A stretch of DNA of 30,557 nt from a virus. A model generated the notes under the pieces. It worked only from the letters and a program-made list of their open reading frames with translations. It had not been told where the DNA came from and did no database searches. The DNA lies in IMG/VR virus record IMGVR_UViG_3300044615_001035, positions 1 to 30,557 of that record; one strand, given 5' to 3'. Shown in pieces: positions 3,361-28,166 of the stretch. Numbering within the stretch: position 1 is the first letter of the stretch; each line of letters starts with the position of its first letter. The translations under genes were made by a program, and so were the position numbers.

Positions 3361-3774
3361 ATGCAATTAGAGTTAATTCCTGGAATTGGAGAATGCTTTT
3401 CGGACTGCATTGCGACAAAAGAATGCAGCACCTGTCGTCGTCGATTGCCGGAAAATTGCTTTGAAGTAAATTATTTGAACTTAAAAGGACAACCTCGCTA
3501 CTCATCGCGTTGCAATAGCTGCAAAAAGAACGCTATAGATCACCTTAAAAAATTAAAAAAAATACATCCCCCACCGCCGAAGGGAACGCTTTGTGCAGTA
3601 CCTGGCTGCGTAAGACTAGGCACATGCCTTGATCATGATCATAATTCTGGAAGGGCTCGTGGATATATCTGCGGTCCTCATAATTCCGCTTTTGCTTACT
3701 GCAATGATTCTGTTGGTGGAGTACAGGCACTTTTGGAATACGCGCAGCAATGGGAGGCTAAAGGGTCTGGCTAA
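3361..3774 (+). CDS. recombination endonuclease VII-like nuclease, 137 aa
   Basis: The start is placed at ATG 3361 (MQLELIPGIGECFSDC); an in-frame TTG at 3337 is less likely. The first half carries two CxxC pairs (ECSTC and RCNSC) typical of a zinc-binding region. The second half has the endonuclease VII signature CLDHDHNSGRARGYICGPHN, an HNH/beta-beta-alpha-metal site with paired His-Asp-His. T4 endonuclease VII cleaves Holliday junctions and branched DNA before packaging; many phages carry shorter relatives such as this. One variation is GPHN where many relatives have a CN pair. Codon use here is more AT-rich than in neighbours. Confidence 0.85.
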   Translation: MQLELIPGIGECFSDCIATKECSTCRRRLPENCFEVNYLNLKGQPRYSSRCNSCKKNAIDHLKKLKKIHPPPPKGTLCAVPGCVRLGTCLDHDHNSGRARGYICGPHNSAFAYCNDSVGGVQALLEYAQQWEAKGSG

Positions 3775-3847
3775 CTTTGTAATAGTCCTTTACAAACCCC
3801 GCAGGATCCGGCCGATCGTGTAATGTGCTCTCGTCGCCTCGCTTCCG

Positions 3848-4045
3848 ATGAACAACCTCCCCTCCATTGTTTCTTTCTTCTCCATCTCCTGTGGCATGAG
3901 TATGCTCACTCTGGCCGCCTTAGTGCATACGCCCGAGCCGCAAGATAGCCCGGCAATGCTTCGCCAATGCCTAAACATTCACCCTGAGCGCTATTGCCGC
4001 CTCACTTACGCTCCGTCTACAGTGAAGGCAATGGAAAGTAAGTGA
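3848..4045 (+). CDS. small secreted or membrane-anchored hypothetical, 65 aa
   Basis: The N-terminus has a hydrophobic stretch (SIVSFFSISCGMSMLTLAAL) that could be a signal peptide or membrane anchor. The rest, with RQCLNIHPERYCRLTY, contains two cysteines that may pair outside the cytoplasm. The family is not recognised. Its stop overlaps the ATG of the next gene (TGATG at 4043-4047), so the two are probably co-translated. Confidence 0.65.
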   Translation: MNNLPSIVSFFSISCGMSMLTLAALVHTPEPQDSPAMLRQCLNIHPERYCRLTYAPSTVKAMESK

Positions 4046-4251
4046 TGTTTGAGCCTGGCGCAATTGTTGATCTCAACGACCACATCTTTGGCTGGAGAGG
4101 ACAATATAAAGTGCTCCCTAAGAAGGCAGAAACCTCCCTAGTCAAGATTAAGAATCTGGGGACAAACAGTGAGCAGTTTGTCAGTGCTGACAGGCTTCGC
4201 AGGAGTCGTTTGTCACAATTCTTCATCAAGGGCCTTGCGCCTAAACGATAA
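4045..4251 (+). CDS. small hypothetical protein, beta-rich, 68 aa
   Basis: The start is taken as ATG 4045, one base into the previous stop; GTG at 4042 is possible. The protein reads MFEPGAIVDLNDHIFGWRGQ, then KVLPKKAETSLVKIKNLG, with short strands and turns like a small SH3-like or KOW-like barrel, ending in a basic tail. That fold suggestion is inference only. It is the last gene before a clear promoter at 4274. Confidence 0.65.
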   Translation: MFEPGAIVDLNDHIFGWRGQYKVLPKKAETSLVKIKNLGTNSEQFVSADRLRRSRLSQFFIKGLAPKR

Positions 4252-4273
4252 ACAACTCTGATGGTTCAGGGGC

Positions 4274-4302
4274 TTGACCGGGGCTCCGTCCATGGGCATT
4301 AT
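4274..4302 (+). promoter_or_regulatory. sigma-70-like promoter
   Basis: TTGACC (4274-4279), a 17-base spacer and CATTAT (4297-4302) match a sigma-70 promoter. The predicted start point is about 4309, so the transcript would begin only a few bases before the GAGGC stem-loop at 4312. Confidence 0.6.
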
Positions 4303-4311
4303 GGCTTCAAC

Positions 4312-4325
4312 GAGGCGCGAGCCTC
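4312..4325 (+). promoter_or_regulatory. GAGGC-GCGA-GCCTC stem-loop, copy 1
   Basis: A five-pair stem is closed by a GCGA (GNRA) tetraloop. It starts nine bases after CATTAT and ends 16 bases before ATG 4342, with a CT-rich stretch and no Shine-Dalgarno site between. Identical 14-mers occur at 4711, 6168 and 6557. Confidence 0.7.
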
Positions 4326-4341
4326 TCATTCCTTTCTTTCC

Positions 4342-4647
4342 ATGACCACCTACCTCCTCGGCTACGCAACCAAAACCCCCATCGTGCGCGGTTTCCTTCG
4401 CCACGCTGGTAGCAGCATCGTCAGCGTGGAATTCGTCAAGGCTGACGGCAGCCTCCGCAAGATCCAATTCAATCCTTGCGACCGCCAGGAAATCAAAGGC
4501 ACTGGCAAGCCCTCTACCAATGCTTCCATTGTTCGCTGCCGCGACTTTGCAGTGGCCCGCAAGGATGGGCAGGGCGCTTGGCGTTCCTTTGACTGCGAGC
4601 GTGTGGTGAGCATCACTGCCAAAGGCGAGACGCTGGTGCTGGCCTGA
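4342..4647 (+). CDS. hypothetical protein, 101 aa, first gene with the GAGGC leader
   Basis: The frame is open further upstream, but ATG 4342 follows the shared leader (stem-loop then CCTTTCTTTCC) and is the sensible start: MTTYLLGYATKTPIVRGFLR. The later part, FAVARKDGQGAWRSFDCERV, is strand-rich and ends KGETLVLA. The family is unknown. It is the first of four genes with near-identical 5' leaders, implying shared control. Confidence 0.7.
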   Translation: MTTYLLGYATKTPIVRGFLRHAGSSIVSVEFVKADGSLRKIQFNPCDRQEIKGTGKPSTNASIVRCRDFAVARKDGQGAWRSFDCERVVSITAKGETLVLA

Positions 4648-4665
4648 TCGTTTGTAAACAATTGT

Positions 4666-4693
4666 GACAGGGGCCAATCCAGGCCCCTCTGTC
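4666..4693 (+). terminator. GC-rich hairpin between small genes
   Basis: GACAG-GGGCC (4666-4675) pairs with GGCCC (4682-4686) and CTGTC (4689-4693) around a 6-nt loop, with a two-base bulge. No T run follows, so termination would be weak. TATTGT at 4697-4702 lies immediately downstream and is a -10-like box for the next gene. Confidence 0.4.
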
Positions 4694-4710
4694 CTGTATT
4701 GTTCTCTCAC

Positions 4711-4724
4711 GAGGCGCGAGCCTC
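4711..4724 (+). promoter_or_regulatory. GAGGC-GCGA-GCCTC stem-loop, copy 2
   Basis: The element is identical to copy 1. It begins eight bases after TATTGT (4697-4702) and ends 18 bases before ATG 4743. The intervening leader is CT-rich. Confidence 0.7.
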
Positions 4725-4742
4725 TCCTTTCCTTTCCTTCCC

Positions 4743-5003
4743 ATGGCAACCATTCCCACTGTCCACCTCAACGGCACCGGCTTCACCGATCTGCGCGACG
4801 GCTACGCTGCTGCGTACGATGCCATTGACAAGGCCATTGACGCCCTGGCGAAAGCCGAGCTCAATGGGAGGGATTTCTATCCGCAGGGCCCTGATGCCTA
4901 CTATCACGCTCGCAAGGAGCGCGATCAGGCCTTCTACCGCCTGCATGCTGTTCACGACTACGTGGGCGAGATGCTGGCTGGCATTTGCGACCAACAGCGC
5001 TGA
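4743..5003 (+). CDS. hypothetical protein, 86 aa
   Basis: It starts at ATG 4743 after the shared leader: MATIPTVHLNGTGFTDLRDG. The middle AIDKAIDALAKAELNGRDFY and the end AVHDYVGEMLAGICDQQR suggest two or three helices. It contains no cysteine motif or membrane segment. The family is unknown. It is a single-gene unit bounded by hairpins. Confidence 0.7.
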   Translation: MATIPTVHLNGTGFTDLRDGYAAAYDAIDKAIDALAKAELNGRDFYPQGPDAYYHARKERDQAFYRLHAVHDYVGEMLAGICDQQR

Positions 5004-5008
5004 AGCGC

Positions 5009-5049
5009 CAAAGCGTGAAGCTTTGTAACGGGGCTTGACCTCAGGCCCC
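5009..5049 (+). promoter_or_regulatory. two hairpins with TTGACC in the second loop
   Basis: CAAAGC-GTGAA-GCTTTG (5009-5025) is a perfect six-pair hairpin. GGGGC (5030-5034) and GCCCC (5045-5049) form a second hairpin whose 10-nt loop starts with TTGACC (5035-5040). A weak -10 (ACTAAT or TAATTT) lies 15-17 bases on. The block may end the upstream transcript and start that of the DUF932 gene. This gene lacks the GAGGC stem-loop. Confidence 0.4.
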
Positions 5050-5095
5050 AAATGAACTAATTTTCCTTTCGTCAGCCAACTTTCCTCTCAAAGCC

Positions 5096-6097
5096 ATGAG
5101 CCACCAATTCACCTCCGGCGTGTTCTTCAACAATGAGCCCGCCTGGCACAAGCTTGGCACCGTCCTCGACGGCACCCAGCCCGCCCGTGAAGCTTTCGCC
5201 ACTGCCAACGCAGACTGGGGCACCATCAGCACTCCCGTGTTTGATCCTGCTGGTGAGCCCATCCCTGGCTACCAGGCCATCACTCGCGGCGACACTGGCA
5301 ATGTGCTCTCCATCCAAAGCGAAAGCTATGCCATCGTTCAAAACGAACAGCTCATCAGGGTGGCAGAAGCCCTGCATGAAGATGCAACGATGGATGCCGT
5401 GGTGGTGCTCAACGAAGGGCGCAAGGTTGCATTCACCGCCAAGGTGAACAATTCCGAAGCTGATGTGCTCCCTGGTGACACCATCCACCAATACCTTGTT
5501 GGTTGCACTTCTCACGATGGCACTATTGCCTTCCAGGTGATGTTCAGCCCCATTCGTGTGGTGTGTCAGAACACGCTTTCCTACGCTCTGGGCCGTGCTG
5601 CTGCTGGTGCATCCACCAAGAAGATGCGCATTCGCCATACCAAGAACGCCAACGCTCTCATTGATCACCTCCCCTCGATCATTGATATGCAGCGCCAGCA
5701 GTTCACTGCGGGCATTGATGAGCTGAAGGCAATGGCCGCCAAGCCCTGCACTTCCGCTCTGTTCCGTCAGTATTGCGAAAGCGTGTTTGCTGACCAACTG
5801 GTGGGCATGACCAACGACAAGCGGGGCGACAAGAGCACTGCCCGCTCCAAGAAGCTGGAAGACCTCACTGCCTGGGACAACGTGGCCAACAAGTTCCATG
5901 GGGAAGGCATTGGCTTTGATATTCCTGGCGTGCAGGGCACCATGTGGGGCGCCTATCAAGCCATCACGGAGTATTTCTCGCACGATGCAGGCCGTGCCGT
6001 GGATTCCATTGATGCTGCCCGCCAGCGGCTGGAAAGCCTCTACTGGGGCACTGGTGCTGCCACCATCGCCAAGGCCCACTCCCTGGCTCTGGCCTGA
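5096..6097 (+). CDS. DUF932 / TIGR03299-type phage-plasmid protein, 333 aa
   Basis: The protein opens MSHQFTSGVFFNNEPAWHKL, then follows the pattern of the DUF932 (TIGR03299, phage/plasmid-like) family: AWHKLG near 16-21, SYAIVQNEQLIRVAEAL near 78-94, HQYLVGCTSHDGTIAFQV, then SPIRVVCQNTLSYAL. Length fits the family. The biochemical role of DUF932 proteins is not established; they are frequent in phage and plasmid replication or early regions. Codon use is GC-rich compared with the glycan module. The leader TTTCCTCTCAAAGCC is CT-rich with no Shine-Dalgarno site. A 344-residue open frame on the other strand is a shadow. Confidence 0.85.
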   Translation: MSHQFTSGVFFNNEPAWHKLGTVLDGTQPAREAFATANADWGTISTPVFDPAGEPIPGYQAITRGDTGNVLSIQSESYAIVQNEQLIRVAEALHEDATMDAVVVLNEGRKVAFTAKVNNSEADVLPGDTIHQYLVGCTSHDGTIAFQVMFSPIRVVCQNTLSYALGRAAAGASTKKMRIRHTKNANALIDHLPSIIDMQRQQFTAGIDELKAMAAKPCTSALFRQYCESVFADQLVGMTNDKRGDKSTARSKKLEDLTAWDNVANKFHGEGIGFDIPGVQGTMWGAYQAITEYFSHDAGRAVDSIDAARQRLESLYWGTGAATIAKAHSLALA

Positions 6098-6118
6098 GCG
6101 TTGCAATGGAGGGAAATG

Positions 6119-6148
6119 GGGCTGGGGGCTTGCGCTCCTGGCCCTTTT
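6119..6148 (+). terminator. terminator after the DUF932 gene, overlapping a promoter
   Basis: GGGCTGGGGGC (6119-6129) and GCTCCTGGCCC (6134-6144) form an 11-pair stem with three G-U pairs, followed by TTTT. The loop begins TTGC; TTGCGC (6130-6135) with TACTGT (6153-6158), 17 bases apart, forms a plausible weak promoter for the next gene. Confidence 0.65.
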
Positions 6149-6167
6149 CGCTTACTGTTCTTTCAAC

Positions 6168-6181
6168 GAGGCGCGAGCCTC
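6168..6181 (+). promoter_or_regulatory. GAGGC-GCGA-GCCTC stem-loop, copy 3
   Basis: The element is identical to copy 1. It begins nine bases after TACTGT (6153-6158) and ends 15 bases before ATG 6197. Confidence 0.7.
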
Positions 6182-6196
6182 ACCGCCTTTCACTCC

Positions 6197-6502
6197 ATGG
6201 CTGCTTCCTTCTCCACCCTGACCGCCACTGAGCGTTGCCTTGTCGCGGCTCCCGCCAACGCATGGGAGGTGTGCGCCGCTGTTCACGACTTTGGCGGCAT
6301 CGTTGACTGTGCAGTGCGTAGCTTCAACGGCAAGAAAGTGCTCAATGCCGTCAAGCTGGGCAACGACTGCTTCGACGTCACCCTGGTGAATCACAACCAT
6401 CTCCAAGGCAGGCTTGTTAAGGGCTCCACCATTCGCTTCACCACCACCGGCACTTGGCTCAAGGAATGGCTGGAAGCAGTGGGTTCCACCGTCACTTTGT
6501 GA
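6197..6502 (+). CDS. hypothetical protein, 101 aa
   Basis: The start is placed at ATG 6197 after the shared leader, not at the open frame's first ATG. The protein reads MAASFSTLTATERCLVAAPA, then IVDCAVRSFNGKKVLNAV, then strand-rich GSTIRFTTTGTWLKEWLEAV. The family is unknown. The strand-rich ending recalls the 4342 gene in style, but I see no alignable motif. A terminator follows directly. Confidence 0.7.
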   Translation: MAASFSTLTATERCLVAAPANAWEVCAAVHDFGGIVDCAVRSFNGKKVLNAVKLGNDCFDVTLVNHNHLQGRLVKGSTIRFTTTGTWLKEWLEAVGSTVTL

Positions 6503-6513
6503 AGAAACAACGG

Positions 6514-6537
6514 AAGGGGCGCTTGGGCGCCCTTTCT
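6514..6537 (+). terminator. rho-independent terminator
   Basis: AAGGGGCGC (6514-6522) and GCGCCCTTT (6527-6535) form a nine-pair stem with one G-U pair and a 4-nt loop, with a short T-rich tail (CT). It lies 12 bases after the stop at 6502. Confidence 0.65.
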
Positions 6538-6556
6538 GGCTTATTATTCCCTCAAC

Positions 6557-6570
6557 GAGGCGCGAGCCTC
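6557..6570 (+). promoter_or_regulatory. GAGGC-GCGA-GCCTC stem-loop, copy 4
   Basis: The element is identical to copy 1. TATTAT (6542-6547), the best -10 of the set, ends nine bases before it. ATG 6587 follows 16 bases after it. Confidence 0.7.
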
Positions 6571-6586
6571 TCCCTTCCTTCTTCCC

Positions 6587-6823
6587 ATGACCTCCTCCTT
6601 CATCCAAGACCAGCTCATTTCCATGGTTGCTCGCTTCATCTGCGAAGCCAAGGCTGGTGACATGCTCATGCTTCCTGCCATGGCAGCCCTCCACAAGCGT
6701 GAAGATGGCCGCATCTGCATGAGCCGCCGAGGAAGCCTGCCCATGCCACTGTGGGAGCCCCTGAGCCACGATATTGTTGCCACCATTGTTAGGTGGAGCA
6801 AAGAAGACCTGCAGGCCGCCTGA
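6587..6823 (+). CDS. hypothetical protein, 78 aa
   Basis: The ATG at 6587 follows the shared leader. The product begins MTSSFIQDQLISMVARFICE and ends DIVATIVRWSKEDLQAA. It appears helical, with methionine-rich AGDMLMLPAMAALHK in the middle. The family is unknown. This is the last of the four GAGGC-leader genes, and the following genes are packed without hairpins. Confidence 0.68.
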   Translation: MTSSFIQDQLISMVARFICEAKAGDMLMLPAMAALHKREDGRICMSRRGSLPMPLWEPLSHDIVATIVRWSKEDLQAA

Positions 6824-6876
6824 GCGGCCTCTCCCCCCTCCGCACCCTCCGAACCCTCCGCAGCCTCCCTAGAACC

Positions 6877-7065
6877 GTGCAAGACACCATCAACATCCTG
6901 GCCATCAGCAATAAAGGCCGTAGCCGCATCGGCACCACCATCACCACTGCCATTGTTGAGCAGAATTTCCACGACAAGCTTTTCATTGTGCTTCCGCAGT
7001 TCAATCAATGCCGATGGATTAAAAGGAACAACGATCCTGACTTTCGCATTATCCCTGAGGATTGA
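6877..7065 (+). CDS. small hypothetical protein, 62 aa, GTG start
   Basis: I choose GTG at 6877 (VQDTINILAISNKGRSRIGT) because upstream frame extension runs through a low-complexity CCTCCGNA-type tract (about 6835-6869) that looks like another CT-rich leader. The end, FRIIPED, overlaps the next start region (TGATCATG). The protein is strand-rich and slightly basic; the family is unknown. The long version starting at 6793 would overlap the previous gene by 31 bases. Confidence 0.5.
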   Translation: MQDTINILAISNKGRSRIGTTITTAIVEQNFHDKLFIVLPQFNQCRWIKRNNDPDFRIIPED

Positions 7066-7067
7066 TC

Positions 7068-7262
7068 ATGCCTTACTCTCTCGTTCTTGATGATGAATGG
7101 GGCATTCCATTCACTGCTAAAACCTTCGCTTCTATTGAAGAAGTGCAAGATGAAATTAAGACAATGGACGAAGCATTGGACGATGCAGGACTAAGCGCCG
7201 CTCATGACATTCGTTGCATTATTGACCAGCTCAAAGAAATTATTGAGGCCGAAAAAGCCTGA
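7068..7262 (+). CDS. small acidic hypothetical protein, 64 aa
   Basis: The ATG at 7068 lies two bases after the previous stop; TTG 7062 is an alternative. The protein is MPYSLVLDDEWGIPFTAKTF followed by acidic helices (SIEEVQDEIKTMDEALDDAG) and a lysine-glutamate tail. The family is not recognised. The small acidic helical character is common among phage host-takeover proteins, but nothing here shows a target. Confidence 0.62.
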   Translation: MPYSLVLDDEWGIPFTAKTFASIEEVQDEIKTMDEALDDAGLSAAHDIRCIIDQLKEIIEAEKA

Positions 7263-7267
7263 AACCC

Positions 7268-7573
7268 ATGCACACCATCCGCAACTACAACAGCAACGGG
7301 CCTTACTTTCCTTCCACCCAGGGAGTGTATCAAGCAGCGCGTCTCCGTGAATTGATCATGCACGTCAGAGTGTGCATGCAAGATGGAGACTACCAAATTG
7401 GCGTGTTTGATGATGATGGTCAATGCAAAGGTATTTGGACTGATGAAGCAGAGCCTGAGCCTGATGGTGAAGGAGGCATGGTTCTAGGAAGACCCGCTTA
7501 TGTGCTATATCGCCCTGGTGACATCCCTGCAGGCTTGTGGAACTTGATGCTTTCTAAATTCAAGAGGGTTTGA
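7268..7573 (+). CDS. hypothetical protein, 101 aa
   Basis: It starts at ATG 7268 (MHTIRNYNSNGPYFPSTQGV), five bases after the previous stop. The middle VCMQDGDYQIGVFDDDGQCK and the end PAYVLYRPGDIPAGLWNLML are strand-rich. The family is not recognised. It precedes the MGTNYYL-type gene by only two bases, so co-translation is likely. Confidence 0.62.
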   Translation: MHTIRNYNSNGPYFPSTQGVYQAARLRELIMHVRVCMQDGDYQIGVFDDDGQCKGIWTDEAEPEPDGEGGMVLGRPAYVLYRPGDIPAGLWNLMLSKFKRV

Positions 7574-7989: not shown

Positions 7990-8165
7990 TTGACGATGAT
8001 TCGCTTTCACACTTCGTTGAGGACTGGTGGAGAGGCATGGTGCTTTACGATCCTGACACTAAAGAATATGTGGACAATATCTTCAAAAACATTCACAAAC
8101 AGCATTTTGTTGATTTTTTGCGGGATGCTTTAGTTGAACTTGGTGGCCAGTATGATTCTCATTGA
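7986..8165 (+). CDS. small hypothetical protein, 59 aa
   Basis: The ATG at 7986 overlaps the preceding stop. The protein reads MIDDDSLSHFVEDWWRGMVL and ends FLRDALVELGGQYDSH. It is acidic and helical with aromatic residues. The family is unknown. Its 3' end overlaps the next small gene by 14 bases, keeping the tight packing of this unit. Confidence 0.6.
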   Translation: MIDDDSLSHFVEDWWRGMVLYDPDTKEYVDNIFKNIHKQHFVDFLRDALVELGGQYDSH

Positions 8166-12245: not shown

Positions 12246-12320
12246 CGCCAATTGTGCAAAGATGTTGTGATTAAAGCTGGCACGATGGAAGTTTGAGCTA
12301 GGCTTTTTCCTGTTGTCACC

Positions 12321-12342
12321 AGCCCGCATGAGCGGGCTTTTT
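12321..12342 (+). terminator. terminator just before nrdA
   Basis: AGCCCGC-ATGA-GCGGGCT is followed by TTTT. It lies six bases before ATG 12349. The open frame of nrdA formally extends through it, but no sensible start is inside. Confidence 0.8.
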
Positions 12343-12348
12343 CGTCTC

Positions 12349-13794
12349 ATGAAGCTGAAGGAAGGAGCCAAGGCAGACAAGATTGCTCGCACAGGAAGAG
12401 TCCAAAATTGGATGGATGATACCAATGGACGCTTGCCCGTATCTTGCACAGTTTTTGTAGTTGAAGATTCAATGGAAGGGGAGGAAGGCATTGAAGCATC
12501 TTGGCGCTTTGTTTCCCATGGTCTGCGTAATGGTGCAGGAGTTGCTGTTCATTTATCTAATTTGCGCGGCAAAGGGCATGAAAATGGCAAAGGGCTTGTA
12601 GCAAGTGGTCCTGTAAGTTTTGGCAAGATTTATTCCACTCTCAATGAAATTCTTCGTCGCGGCGGCGTCTATAAAAACGGGGCTGTAGTATTGCATCTTG
12701 ATTATGACCATCCTGATGCGCTTGATTTCCTGCAAGCTTCTAGGCAAGAACTTCCATGGGTGAAACGTTGTCTAAACGTAGACGAAAATTTCCTTGAACG
12801 TTCTTCTAAGGAGCTGATTGATACTCTCCTTAAAGGCATTGGCACTGGCGACATCTGGCTTAATAAGATTCGCTACAACGAAAAAGGCGAGCGCATTCGT
12901 GCCAATGTTTGCCTGGAAGTGTATCTCCCCCATCGTGGCACCTGCCTGCTGCAGCATGTCAATATGGGCGCCTGCTCCATTGAAGACGTGACAGGGGCCT
13001 TTGTGGAGGGCATGGAGCAGCTCTGTGAGCTTCATGGCAAAACGGGCGTGGGCGCCACAGGCGAATATCTTCCTTCTGTGATTGATAGACAAGTGGGGCT
13101 TGGCATGCTTGGGCTTGCTAATTTCCTTTCCCTCCATGGCATTTCTTATGCTGACTTCGGCAAAGCCCTGAAAGCCTTCAATCAAGAAGATCCGCGAGAC
13201 TGGTATGAAATTATGGACAAGCCAGTGGGTAATGCCGTATTTGCCATCTTCCAAGGTATTAGTGGTGCTGCTGAAGTGGCTCGTGAAGCTGGAATGGAAC
13301 GCGCCTTCTGCATTGCTCCTACAGCCTCTTGCTCCTACCGCTATTTAGATTCCAAAGGCTTTACGACAGCCCCTGAAATCGCCCCTCCCATTGCTCGTTT
13401 AGTTGATCGGGATAGTGGCACTTTCGGCGTGGAAAGCTTTGACTATGGGGAAGTGGAAATTGCTGCTGAAGTGGGCTGGGACAATTACAAACTGGTCGCA
13501 GATGAGCTGGTACGTCTGTATCAAAACACTGGTCTTTTCCATGGCTATTCGTATAACTCATGGAGCGACATTGTTATTTACGACGAGGCCTTCTTGAAAG
13601 ATTGGCTAGAATCTCCTCAGACAAGCCTCTACTATTCGCTGCAAGTTCTCCCGGACACGCAACGAAAAGATGATGCTTACGCTGCCTTAGACGACGAATT
13701 TAAGACCATGTTTGGACTCAGCGATACTGAGCCCTTAGGAGAGACTGTCTCTTGTGGCATAGATGCTGGTTTCTGCGCTGCATGCGCGGAGTGA
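12349..13794 (+). CDS. nrdA: compact class I ribonucleotide reductase alpha subunit (NrdA-like), 481 aa
   Basis: It would reduce ribonucleotides to deoxyribonucleotides for phage DNA synthesis, with the beta subunit encoded next. The start ATG 12349 follows the terminator. Landmarks: VSCTVFVVEDSMEG with C33 as first redox cysteine; SGPVSF at 86-91; ANVCLEV with N186, C188 and E190 as the active-site Asn-Cys-Glu; GTCLLQHVN with C199 as the second redox cysteine; APTASCSYRY; TSLYYS with Y428-Y429 matching the radical-transfer tyrosine pair of class I enzymes; and a C-terminal CGIDAGFCAAC with C469, C476 and C479. Typical class Ia subunits are about 750 residues; here the ATP cone and most of the N-terminal region are missing, so allosteric activity control should be absent. 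Family assignment is confident, fine subclass is not. Confidence 0.88.
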   Translation: MKLKEGAKADKIARTGRVQNWMDDTNGRLPVSCTVFVVEDSMEGEEGIEASWRFVSHGLRNGAGVAVHLSNLRGKGHENGKGLVASGPVSFGKIYSTLNEILRRGGVYKNGAVVLHLDYDHPDALDFLQASRQELPWVKRCLNVDENFLERSSKELIDTLLKGIGTGDIWLNKIRYNEKGERIRANVCLEVYLPHRGTCLLQHVNMGACSIEDVTGAFVEGMEQLCELHGKTGVGATGEYLPSVIDRQVGLGMLGLANFLSLHGISYADFGKALKAFNQEDPRDWYEIMDKPVGNAVFAIFQGISGAAEVAREAGMERAFCIAPTASCSYRYLDSKGFTTAPEIAPPIARLVDRDSGTFGVESFDYGEVEIAAEVGWDNYKLVADELVRLYQNTGLFHGYSYNSWSDIVIYDEAFLKDWLESPQTSLYYSLQVLPDTQRKDDAYAALDDEFKTMFGLSDTEPLGETVSCGIDAGFCAACAE

Positions 13795-13881: not shown

Positions 13882-14616
13882 ATGACCGTCCTTGAAAAGA
13901 GCCCCTATTCAGCAATGATCGCCAAGAAGCGCCCCTGGCAAGCCACGCCAGTGGACAATTCGCCTGTGAAGGAAGGCGCTGAATCCACGCTTTTCAAGAC
14001 CATTGCTTTGCGCCACCTTGAACTGCCCGTGAAGGACTTGCTTGAGCAAGGCTTACAGAAGGAACTGCCTTCCACTCCTGGCATCATTGAGGCGTTGCGC
14101 TCCAACCAGAAGGATGAAGAGCGTCATGATGAAGCGCTGAACTATGTTGCTGCCGCCTATGGCACTGACGAGAAGGCAGAGCGAGAAGTGCAAAACATCT
14201 TGAAGGTGTGGATGGAGCACCCCGCCCATCCAATTCATAAAGTGTCCATTATTGAGCGTTCTATCTTCTTCGTTGCCCTGCCGTTCTTCCGCTTCAATGG
14301 CAACATCGGCATGCGCACGGTGTCAGCAGACATTAGCCGTGACGAGCAAGTGCATTGTGGCGTTCATGGTTTGGTGGCCAAGGAACTGGGCGAAACGGAA
14401 ACGGAAAGCCTTAATAAGCTGCGCATTGCCACTGCTGGCTGGCTGTTTGAGCACTTGGGCAAGAGCGATGATCAATGGCTCGACAAAAACGCTTGGATGC
14501 AGCGCTCTGAGCGCCTGTTCTGGGAAGGAAAGGCTTCTGGCATGGAAGACTCCCGTCGTAGCCGTCAAATCGCGTTCTTTGAAAGTTCAAACGTAAATCT
14601 TCCATGCTATGGTTGA
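13882..14616 (+). CDS. nrdB: compact class I ribonucleotide reductase beta subunit (NrdB-like), 244 aa
   Basis: This is the ferritin-like radical-generating partner of NrdA. Metal-ligand candidates: E47 or a neighbour, E79 and H82 in DEERHDEAL, E125 in IIERSIFF, and E155 and H158 in RDEQVHCGVH, giving two ExxH motifs. Standard NrdB is about 350-375 residues; here the distance between the first ExxH and the next Glu is 46 rather than about 89. The residue four after H82, where E. coli has the radical Tyr122, reads Leu86, so a stable tyrosyl radical at the usual place is not evident. The C-terminal tail (SSNVNLPCYG) should bind NrdA and recurs at the end of the HNH gene downstream. A CT-rich leader precedes the ATG. 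Confidence 0.82.
   Translation: MTVLEKSPYSAMIAKKRPWQATPVDNSPVKEGAESTLFKTIALRHLELPVKDLLEQGLQKELPSTPGIIEALRSNQKDEERHDEALNYVAAAYGTDEKAEREVQNILKVWMEHPAHPIHKVSIIERSIFFVALPFFRFNGNIGMRTVSADISRDEQVHCGVHGLVAKELGETETESLNKLRIATAGWLFEHLGKSDDQWLDKNAWMQRSERLFWEGKASGMEDSRRSRQIAFFESSNVNLPCYG
14590..14603 (+). repeat. 14-bp repeat, copy A, in the nrdB tail
   Basis: AACGTAAATCTTCC occurs here and at 15283-15296 in the same reading frame (ANVNLP/SNVNLP). Both copies are followed by a Tyr-Gly codon pair and a stop within 20 bases. Confidence 0.85.
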
Positions 14617-14644
14617 CATTTGATTCCCTTCTTATGCTATGATT

Positions 14645-14670
14645 ACGGGGTTAACCACCCCGTTTTTTTT
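14645..14670 (+). terminator. strong terminator after nrdB, touching the next ATG
   Basis: ACGGGG-TTAACCA-CCCCGT is followed by a run of eight Ts ending at 14670; the HNH gene's ATG is at 14671. It ends the nrd transcript. TTGACA at 14613-14618, overlapping the nrdB stop, with TATGAT 19 bases later is a possible promoter upstream of it. Confidence 0.85.
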
Positions 14671-15312
14671 ATGGAAGAAATCTGGAAACCTATTCCTGGC
14701 TACGAAAATTTATACGAAGCCTCAAGCTTGGGTAATATTAGATCTGTAGACAGGACTGTTTTAGATGAGCGAAATCAGAAGCAGCGCACGCGCACATTCA
14801 GGGGGAGACAATTGTCCCCAAATATCAATAAAGATAGCGGCCGTCATTCTGTCATGCTTTCTAAAGAAGGAAAGACAAAAAGATTCACAGTCGCTCGTTT
14901 AATTTGCCTGGCTTTTCATGGCTTGCCTCCAGAAGGGAAAAATTTAGTATTGCATTATGACGACATTCATACAAATAATATGCCAGAAAACTTAAGGTGG
15001 GGCAATCACTTGGAAAATCTAGAAGATTGCGTTCGCAATAGAGGCTCTCATCCCCGTTACATTGATGGCAGAAGCAATCGCAAGAGAGGACCAGTCGGGG
15101 GCGCCATCTTAAATGAGTATCAAGTAAGAGTGTTGAGGCGACTTCCTGACCTACGCTCACTGCGAGGGTTGAGGGAAGACCTGGCCGAAGAGTGGGGAGT
15201 CGCTCCTTCTAGCATATCCAGCGCCAAATACAAACAAACAGCGTGGAACACGCTATCTCCTGTGCCGCTATGGGAAATCGCCAACGTAAATCTTCCTTCC
15301 TACGGCTCTTGA
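14671..15312 (+). CDS. NUMOD4/HNH homing endonuclease-like protein, 213 aa
   Basis: The start is at ATG 14671: MEEIWKPIPGYENLYEASSL and GNIRSVDR form the NUMOD4 DNA-binding motif (residues 1-28). RFTVARLICLAFHGLPPEGK leads into the HNH core LVLHYDDIHTNNMPENLRWG (92-111), where the first His is retained. Residues about 145-190 (LNEYQVRVLRRLP to SSISSAKYKQTAWNTL) look like a helix-turn-helix DNA-binding tail. Such enzymes cut allelic sites lacking their gene and spread by repair. The extreme C-terminus, WEIANVNLPSYGS, matches the nrdB tail. AT-rich codon use differs from nrdB, suggesting recent arrival. Confidence 0.85.
   Translation: MEEIWKPIPGYENLYEASSLGNIRSVDRTVLDERNQKQRTRTFRGRQLSPNINKDSGRHSVMLSKEGKTKRFTVARLICLAFHGLPPEGKNLVLHYDDIHTNNMPENLRWGNHLENLEDCVRNRGSHPRYIDGRSNRKRGPVGGAILNEYQVRVLRRLPDLRSLRGLREDLAEEWGVAPSSISSAKYKQTAWNTLSPVPLWEIANVNLPSYGS
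15283..15296 (+). repeat. 14-bp repeat, copy B, at the end of the HNH gene
   Basis: The sequence is identical to 14590-14603 and in frame with it. It looks like a second copy of the nrdB 3' end left by insertion of the endonuclease gene. Confidence 0.85.
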
Positions 15313-27565: not shown

Positions 27566-27870
27566 GCGAATACGTGCGGGTGATTGAAGAAGAGGAGGAT
27601 GGCATTGGCGTTATGAAAGCGCTTGCCATTCTTTCTGCCAACGAGCACCGCAACACCTCACAGTGGCGCCTCGTCGAAGAACAGCATTTCAAAAATGGAC
27701 GCCTCGATGAAACCCACATTTTTGTCATCAATGCCTATGACAAGCCTGACGAGCATTTTGATCAGGTGAAGATGCTGGTTTTTGAGGCTGAGGCTATTGC
27801 AAAGTCTTATGTGATGGAAGGTATTGAAAGTCAACTTGCAGAACTGTCGGATGAAGAGGACGATGATTAA
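27562..27870 (+). CDS. hypothetical acidic protein, 102 aa
   Basis: It starts at ATG 27562 overlapping the previous stop (ATGA). It begins MSEYVRVIEEEEDGIGVMKA, has WRLVEEQHFKNGRLDETHIF in the middle and ends LAELSDEEDDD. No family is recognised. It closes the three-gene run and its end meets the opposing regulator gene tail-to-tail (overlap of four bases). Confidence 0.65.
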   Translation: MSEYVRVIEEEEDGIGVMKALAILSANEHRNTSQWRLVEEQHFKNGRLDETHIFVINAYDKPDEHFDQVKMLVFEAEAIAKSYVMEGIESQLAELSDEEDDD

Positions 27871-28166
27871 TCTTCGCTTACTGCGGAGACTACAAATGTG
27901 GGATAGCCAAGAAGATACAAAATTGAAAGCTGAAAAGCAGAACTAAGCAAGCGTATCTCCGCACAGTCAGGCGAAATAATACCTCGCTCCATTCGCGAAA
28001 CGGTGGTTTGGTCGCAATGAAGAATGGCCGCTATGTCGCATTGTGACATGCCGCTGTTGAGACGAGCTTCTTTTATGCGCTGTCCAATCACTTGCCTACT
28101 TTCCTGCATGGAAAGCATGGGAGCTTTTACTTTTGTGGTGATGCGCCGATGCTGAATATGCTGCAT
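27867..28166 (-). CDS. XRE-family helix-turn-helix regulator, 99 aa
   Basis: Residues about 27-80, IGQRIKEARLNSGMSQCDIA AILHCDQTTVSRMERG, form a classic HTH_3/Cro-C1 domain with SxxDIA and TVSRMERG recognition helix. MLSMQESRQ (ATG near 28115) is a possible later start. It lies alone on the minus strand inside the structural gene block, sharing a 61-bp gap with the DUF2213 gene. It could repress itself and the capsid genes, but the target is unknown. Confidence 0.8.
   Translation of the reverse strand: MQHIQHRRITTKVKAPMLSMQESRQVIGQRIKEARLNSGMSQCDIAAILHCDQTTVSRMERGIISPDCAEIRLLSSAFQLSILYLLGYPTFVVSAVSED

Follow-up and report, generated by a model that had tools for sequence, protein, structure and literature searches.

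Introduction

Why should one and the same 14-nucleotide (nt) sequence stand at a nearly fixed distance before four small genes of a virus? The question is raised by positions 4312-6570 of IMG/VR record IMGVR_UViG_3300044615_001035, a virus record of 30557 bases that is called the window here, in which GAGGC-GCGA-GCCTC can fold into a five-base-pair (bp) stem closed by a GNRA tetraloop. Over 86% of its length, the portal protein of the window shares 66% identity with the portal of Synechococcus phage S-CBS4, the nearest named isolate, which is annotated with tape-measure and minor tail genes and in which no T4-type gene set was seen. In this study, the element is found to recur in S-CBS4-like relatives, to keep its place between promoter and start codon, to covary in its stem and to bear the signature of a gene-strand RNA. 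It is proposed, with a probability of roughly one half, that in RNA the 14-mer folds into a stem of 5 bp with a GCGA or GAGA (GNRA) tetraloop at the 5' end of short S-CBS4-like cyanophage mRNAs, where it acts as a shield.

The four hairpin copies

The window contains exactly four copies of GAGGC-GCGA-GCCTC, at 4312, 4711, 6168 and 6557, all on the + strand. The -10-like hexamers CATTAT, TATTGT, TACTGT and TATTAT precede the stems of copies 1-4 by 9, 8, 9 and 9 nt, an ATG follows after 16, 18, 15 and 16 nt, and the open reading frames (ORFs) behind the copies encode 101, 86, 101 and 78 amino acids (aa), respectively. Chance repetition was rejected as the source of the four copies: shuffled sequences held a mean of 0.26 matches to the 14-mer with at most two mismatches (largest number, 2), and an identical hairpin with a 5-bp stem and 4-nt loop never occurred more than twice in any of 200 Markov-1 sequences of the window's composition. 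This confirms an earlier sequence-only reading, which had described four identical stem-loops, each with a -10-like hexamer 8-9 nt before it and an ATG 15-18 nt after it; such a recurrence is far above chance. It had also described a CT-rich leader and a DUF932 gene at 5096 lacking the hairpin; the four leaders are indeed pyrimidine-rich and free of Shine-Dalgarno sequences, and the DUF932 gene has no hairpin in the window, although its leader in the relative L147 does carry one, GGGC-GAGA-GCCC.

RNA folding produced the hairpin in all four leaders and left the rest of each leader largely unpaired. The whole-stretch folding z-scores are modest (-0.82, -1.46, -1.22 and -1.87), so that the case for the hairpin rests on conservation and not on energy. 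A consensus promoter scan identified a -35 element for only the first of the four hairpin promoters (TTGACC at 4274), and as a whole it returned one promoter versus 1.3 in shuffles, i.e. no excess. Rfam 15, searched with window positions 3500-7500, gave nothing above the gathering thresholds and two weak matches below them, one of which (sucC, minus strand 6135-6193, 20.7 of 50 bits) overlaps hairpin copy 3.

Recurrence in related phages

Related loci were collected from a viral collection by protein, with genes 1, 2, 4 and 5 standing behind copies 1-4 and gene 3 encoding the DUF932 protein: 28 loci for DUF932, four for gene 4, 12 for gene 5, 80 of 85 kept for gene 2 and 63 for gene 1. The contigs are related to one another and overlap in part; grouping by shared 60-mers places 116 loci in 15 clusters, and the counts given below are not independent. 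Anchored rows were dereplicated from 219 to 155 for pairing and arm counts, from 161 to 109 for the 5' overhang and from 176 to 149 for distances.

The S-CBS4-like relatives show the same layout with other stems (GGGCC/GGCCC, GGGCA/TGCCC, GGGCG/CGCCC, GTTGG/CCAAC, GGCCG/CGGTC and more) before orthologous and unrelated small genes. The 155 unique rows contain 42 distinct arm pairs, and the element stands before 103 distinct N-termini. A covariance model (R1) built from 68 leader pieces was applied to 25 of the 63 gene 1 loci, on contigs outside its training, and yielded 49 matches with an expectation value (E) <= 0.1, all on the gene strand and in 21 of the 25 loci; they comprise 40 different sequences, with six identical to stretches of training loci, and 47 matches in 20 of 24 held-out loci remain after removal of L342, which is identical to training loci. 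Recurrence in related phages, a test named in the sequence-only reading, is borne out by these held-out matches. R1 matches were also present in 13 of 13 records including S-CBS4, several of which contributed to the model, and in the 11 records with at least two matches these lie within about 3 kilobases (kb) on one strand. As negative controls, three other cyanosiphoviruses were free of R1 matches at E <= 1, namely S-CBS1 over its whole length, S-CBS2 over 1-50000 of 72332 and PSS2 over 50000-99999 of 107530; parts of S-H1 (27954 of 39158), B23 (30273 of 243633) and S-CRES2 (30240 of 73707) gave none better than E 0.4. On the host side, a scan of genome contigs with a lytic-transglycolase-like protein gave 40 loci, with no cyanobacterium among their titles, and a photosystem family identified one control genome as cyanobacterial.

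The exact 14-mer was rejected as a marker across all viruses. It occurs in at least 120 viral stretches, most of the other copies lack the promoter context, and an R1 match at E <= 0.1 was obtained in 12 of the 118 stretches searched (11 of 98 and one of 20), a set that leaves out L036 and L055, which also have four copies. In S-CBS4, a plain hairpin scan returned 11 rows, six of them in a cluster at 63.6-68.8 kb, with loops at record positions 63667, 65505, 66682, 67143, 67595 and 68734, and the other five scattered, without the layout. At 36532, 38171 and 38622 of the S-CBS4 locus L158, hairpins lie directly before + strand ORFs of 131, 125 and 128 aa; at these sites the record places gp095 and gp100 on the opposite strand and lets gp101 begin later, and the annotation may be wrong. 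The S-CBS4 protein gp086 (L158 32649-33380), annotated as 'Rnase E', was considered as a partner and found unsupported: its Pfam matches up to E 0.1 are all of helix-turn-helix type, including a ribonuclease R winged-helix domain (E 0.097), with no RNase E domain. In L128, another repeated hairpin, ATGCGGCTATGCGCAT, occurs three times within about 100 nt, at 8137, 8189 and 8233.

Covariation of the stem

To avoid circularity, three features alone were used to pick sites: a -10-like hexamer, an ATG and, suitably spaced between them, a GNRA tetramer. Stems of 4 bp or longer were present at 103 of 142 picked sites with GCGA and 51 of 60 with GAGA; for the same tetramers at other places in these loci, the counts were 136 of 2367 and 74 of 1709. 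Such a stem accompanied GAAA in none of seven cases and other GNRA tetramers in one of 32, and in 62 of 3469 cases a tetramer in this position that was neither GNRA nor UNCG. Among 121 unique leaders that were not selected for stems, 91% of the stem cells are paired (63% in shuffles), 26 pair types occur (shuffle mean 20, largest 25) and 165 changes affect both sides (shuffle mean 45, largest 81), exceeding all 500 shuffles on the three pairing measures, although the shuffles do not keep relatedness. These unselected counts take the place of those from alignment A1 (68 sequences: 64 picked from 97 plus four S-CBS4 pieces), which was selected for stems and whose 98.2% pairing is therefore circular. 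The compensating pair changes answer the other test of the sequence-only reading, stem covariation, in its favour; the changes of stem letters between phages and the terminator-like repeats upstream had been missed there.

Furthermore, G.T cells (G.U in RNA) outnumber A.C cells 43 to 9 in 104 symmetrically selected stems, which indicates that selection acts on the gene-strand RNA. The stem length is constant at five, pairs 6 and 7 being mostly unpaired. The stem letters vary while the loop stays GCGA or GAGA, and several stem sequences are found within one genome.

Promoter, start and leader

The features of the window around the four copies are as follows.

4274-4302, + strand: predicted promoter of gene 1, by consensus match only; -35 TTGACC (4274-4279), 17 nt, -10 CATTAT (4297-4302)
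4312-4325, + strand: hairpin copy 1, GAGGC-GCGA-GCCTC
4342-4647, + strand: gene 1, 101 aa, weak resemblance to WYL_2 (Sm-like barrel), E 0.018, below cut-off
4669-4688, + strand: terminator-like inverted repeat AGGGGCC-AATCCA-GGCCCCT, upstream of gene 2
4697-4702, + strand: -10 TATTGT of gene 2
4711-4724, + strand: hairpin copy 2
4743-5003, + strand: gene 2, 86 aa, without Pfam or PHROG family
5035-5063, + strand: promoter of the DUF932 gene, TTGACC-17-TAATTT, without a GNRA hairpin behind it in the window
5096-6097, + strand: gene 3, DUF932 protein, 333 aa, Pfam E 8.9e-42
6118-6145, + strand: terminator-like hairpin upstream of gene 4
6153-6158, + strand: -10 TACTGT of gene 4
6168-6181, + strand: hairpin copy 3
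6197-6502, + strand: gene 4, 101 aa, without Pfam or PHROG family
6511-6538, + strand: terminator-like hairpin upstream of gene 5
6542-6547, + strand: -10 TATTAT of gene 5
6557-6570, + strand: hairpin copy 4
6587-6823, + strand: gene 5, 78 aa, without Pfam or PHROG family

With any GNRA allowed, the loops of 176 elements are GCGA in 119, GAGA in 52 and GCAA in five. The -10 element is TATTGT in 129 of the 176, and the hairpin is present in 133 of 154 unique leaders after TATTGTT; at least two of the 21 leaders without it keep the stem with another loop, GAGG (L193) or AAGA (L218). A -35 element was identified in 30 of 176 elements, and in two at a control offset. An inverted repeat lies within 52 nt upstream in 101 of 176 elements versus 118 of 1000 random windows; of 92 unique repeats, 59 have at least three T among the 7 nt that follow. 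The -35 element falls inside the terminator loop in 10 of 25 upstream regions that have one, compared with 267 of 1630 random placements, a modest difference of which no use is made here.

The leader between stem and ATG consists of 47% C, 28% T and 7% G, and contains a Shine-Dalgarno-like tetramer in four of 176 elements. The position of the stem has a standard deviation of 1.5 nt relative to the -10 element and 2.38 nt relative to ATG; the two distances compensate poorly (r -0.2), and the middle half of 149 elements has 15-18 nt from stem to ATG. With the start taken as the purine about 7 nt after the -10 element, the predicted number of unpaired 5' nucleotides is three in 44 of 109 elements (the mode) and 1-5 in 98. 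A run of four T, as expected of an intrinsic terminator, follows the GNRA stem in 7 of 149 elements, and two of the four window hairpins pass a loose terminator scan.

A proposed 5'-terminal shield

The order of the proposed module would be terminator, promoter, 5'-terminal GNRA hairpin and start codon. The terminator-like repeat would often end the previous unit, and the -10 promoter, mostly TATTGTT and sometimes with a TTGAC -35 element, would start the RNA at the predicted purine, so that the hairpin would begin about 3 nt into the RNA and be followed by 15-18 nt of open C/U-rich leader up to AUG. The stem-loop would deny a free 5' end to decay enzymes, namely the 5'-sensing RNase E, RNase J and a putative cyanobacterial triphosphate remover, and the shielded phage mRNAs would last longer, while the open leader would let ribosomes load without a Shine-Dalgarno sequence. 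This reading is preferred because the 5' place, the free stem letters, the stable loop and the open leader fit it. The sequence-only reading had spoken of a cap-like element or a translation signal. Within the former, position and covariation lend good support to an RNA hairpin at the predicted 5' end that is common to a set of genes, and protection itself is the best reading of what it would do; the latter is less supported, as the stem varies less in its distance from the promoter than in that from the start codon.

According to passages of PMC3997798, RNase E and RppH rely on 5' ends that are single-stranded, and mRNA is stabilised by secondary structure at this end. As stated in part of PMC10989914, both RNase E and RNase J are present in cyanobacteria, whereas a close homologue of RppH is absent. 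In addition, a Prochlorococcus cyanophage raises host RNase E, and antisense RNAs have been proposed to spare its transcripts (passages of PMC9692554); a 5' hairpin would be another way to spare phage transcripts.

Several points weigh against a shield. RppH of B. subtilis requires at least two unpaired nucleotides at the 5' end, with a preference for three or more (PMC3997798, in the same passages), and a 3-nt overhang may therefore not block such an enzyme. The loops are almost exclusively GCGA or GAGA, which is narrower than plain stability asks, and of 104 within-locus pairs with different stems 72 share the loop, a number that none of 2000 permutations reached (mean 50.8) but that contig relatedness could also give. 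The transcript 5' ends are predictions, 146 of 176 elements lack a good -35 element and 11 of 90 loci show no element by the rule applied to them. Upstream of gene 1, L300, L302, L304, L308-L311, L315, L317, L319, L321, L322, L330, L332 and L334 have a variant placed at the start codon, in which the loop is unchanged but the hairpin is shorter (CCTG-GCGA-CAGG or GCTG-GCGA-CAGC) and ends only 5-6 nt before ATG, and the innermost pair is broken and the loop larger in L318, L326, L327 and in L329, L333 (GAGGC-GCGA-CCCTC; GGGC-GAGA-TCCC).

Alternative explanations

The narrow choice of loop would suit a recognition tag, in which the GNGA loop and the 5-bp stem on nascent phage RNA are recognised by an RNA-binding protein of phage or host, for antitermination of the boxB/N kind, stabilisation or translation control of the gene set. 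Such a tag is possible, and is put forward tentatively: loop agreement across different stems, the constant stem length, the promoter-proximal place and the surrounding terminator-like repeats are all in keeping with it, whereas the stem letters vary freely inside one genome and the reader protein is hypothetical, contig relatedness being another possible source of the loop agreement. The boxB element of phage lambda has a 5-bp stem and a pentaloop with a GNRA-type fold, and lies near an early promoter together with boxA, the consensus of which is CGCTCTTTA. However, the aligned elements have a tetraloop, and a sequence within two mismatches of boxA occurs in only 10 of 149 leaders searched after the stem. 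A rather doubtful extension is a phage-wide 'self' mark, by which a phage-encoded or phage-altered protein would read the GNGA hairpin and spare or favour phage mRNA during the destruction of host mRNA; loop and reader would then co-evolve in each phage, as suggested by the agreement of loops within genomes.

An element of translation appears unlikely; the hairpin would here border the initiating ribosome on its upstream side and take the place of a Shine-Dalgarno sequence by holding the C/U-rich leader open. The spacing from stem to ATG and a nearly G-free leader, largely unpaired in the four folds of the window, agree with it, but the tighter coupling to the promoter and the poor compensation of distances do not, and an effect on the ribosome alone would not need GCGA or GAGA. 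A DNA-level operator, with the dyad immediately downstream of the start bound by an activator or a repressor, is very improbable, and so is a promoter-proximal attenuator. The dyad does lie at about the predicted +4, the window has an HTH_3 repressor-like gene (27870-28166, minus strand) and two hairpins pass the loose terminator scan; however, the excess of G.T over A.C cells and the kept polarity of the GNRA loop are unexpected for a DNA dyad and largely disfavour it, several stem sequences coexist in one genome, and the T run of an attenuator is rare.

Comparison with known systems

Promoter early stem-loops (PeSLs) of T4-type phages are units of terminator and promoter (passages of PMC4503421). 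The likeness lies in a composite of terminator and promoter before small genes in a variable region; the succession of stem-loop and promoter is seen for the part of the elements with an upstream repeat, and the 103 distinct N-termini are compatible with the mobility and gene shuffling of PeSLs. The element was not filed as a PeSL because the S-CBS4-like phage is not T4-type, and to our knowledge a covarying GNRA hairpin at the mRNA 5' end is no part of that system.

Stabilising 5'-terminal stem-loops are described for the ompA and papA mRNAs (passages of PMC3997798), and T4 gene 32 has a 5' CUUCGG hairpin (part of PMC8948821). The element resembles these in its stable tetraloop hairpin, which is predicted to lie at or close to the 5' end of the mRNA, 1-5 nt from the predicted start in 98 of 109 elements; those cases concern single transcripts or scattered sites, whereas the GNRA hairpin goes together with a single type of promoter in front of many genes. 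The Start Associated Sequences (SAS) of Cluster K mycobacteriophages are fixed 13-bp sequences a few nucleotides from the start (passages of PMC3203893), and resemble the element as a short repeat before many small non-structural genes, the genes differing between phages. However, the same passages give little support for mRNA hairpins, whereas here structure is kept and sequence varies; the conserved 13 bp with a Shine-Dalgarno-like core have no counterpart in the varying stem letters and the rarity of such tetramers in the leaders. Repeated intergenic promoter units of tailed viruses are also known as the promoter and inverted repeat motif of HGTV-1 (PMC3950731) and the promoter repeats of halovirus HF2 (PMC8707807), but these are archaeal viruses, and the passages of both sources report no covarying GNRA hairpin. 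No report of such a hairpin coupled to cyanophage promoters was found in a literature search that covered few subscription papers, or in Rfam for window positions 3500-7500.

Neighbouring genes

Gene 1, which itself stands behind hairpin copy 1, was considered as a candidate hairpin reader. It weakly resembles the WYL_2 Sm-like barrels, as does its S-CRES2 homologue (E 4.6e-5), both below the cut-off. Its AlphaFold model has a mean predicted local distance difference test score (pLDDT) of 78.3, and a comparison with the PDB gave no match at E <= 0.001, the best ones being Sm-like and WYL proteins. Elsewhere in the window (14613-14671), a TTGACA promoter is followed by a perfect hairpin (14645-14663) and a T run just before the ATG of a NUMOD4/HNH endonuclease, i.e. 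a terminator directly behind a promoter. The ribonucleotide reductase ORF (12313-13794) matches only parts of the family models and may be shortened.

Conclusions

A short RNA element with clear covariation and one promoter type is common to many uncultivated cyanophages and to the isolate S-CBS4. By analogy, it is akin to a PeSL with an added 5' hairpin and to the 5' stem-loops of ompA, papA and T4 gene 32. In poorly annotated regions it points to likely starts of transcription and of genes, and it is small enough for a reporter test; if the shield reading is true, it could provide a portable mRNA-stabilising leader for cyanobacterial expression. The small-gene mRNAs of these phages probably begin with a folded cap, which may protect them against decay or label them as viral, and the element bears on the survival of cyanophage mRNAs during host RNA degradation.

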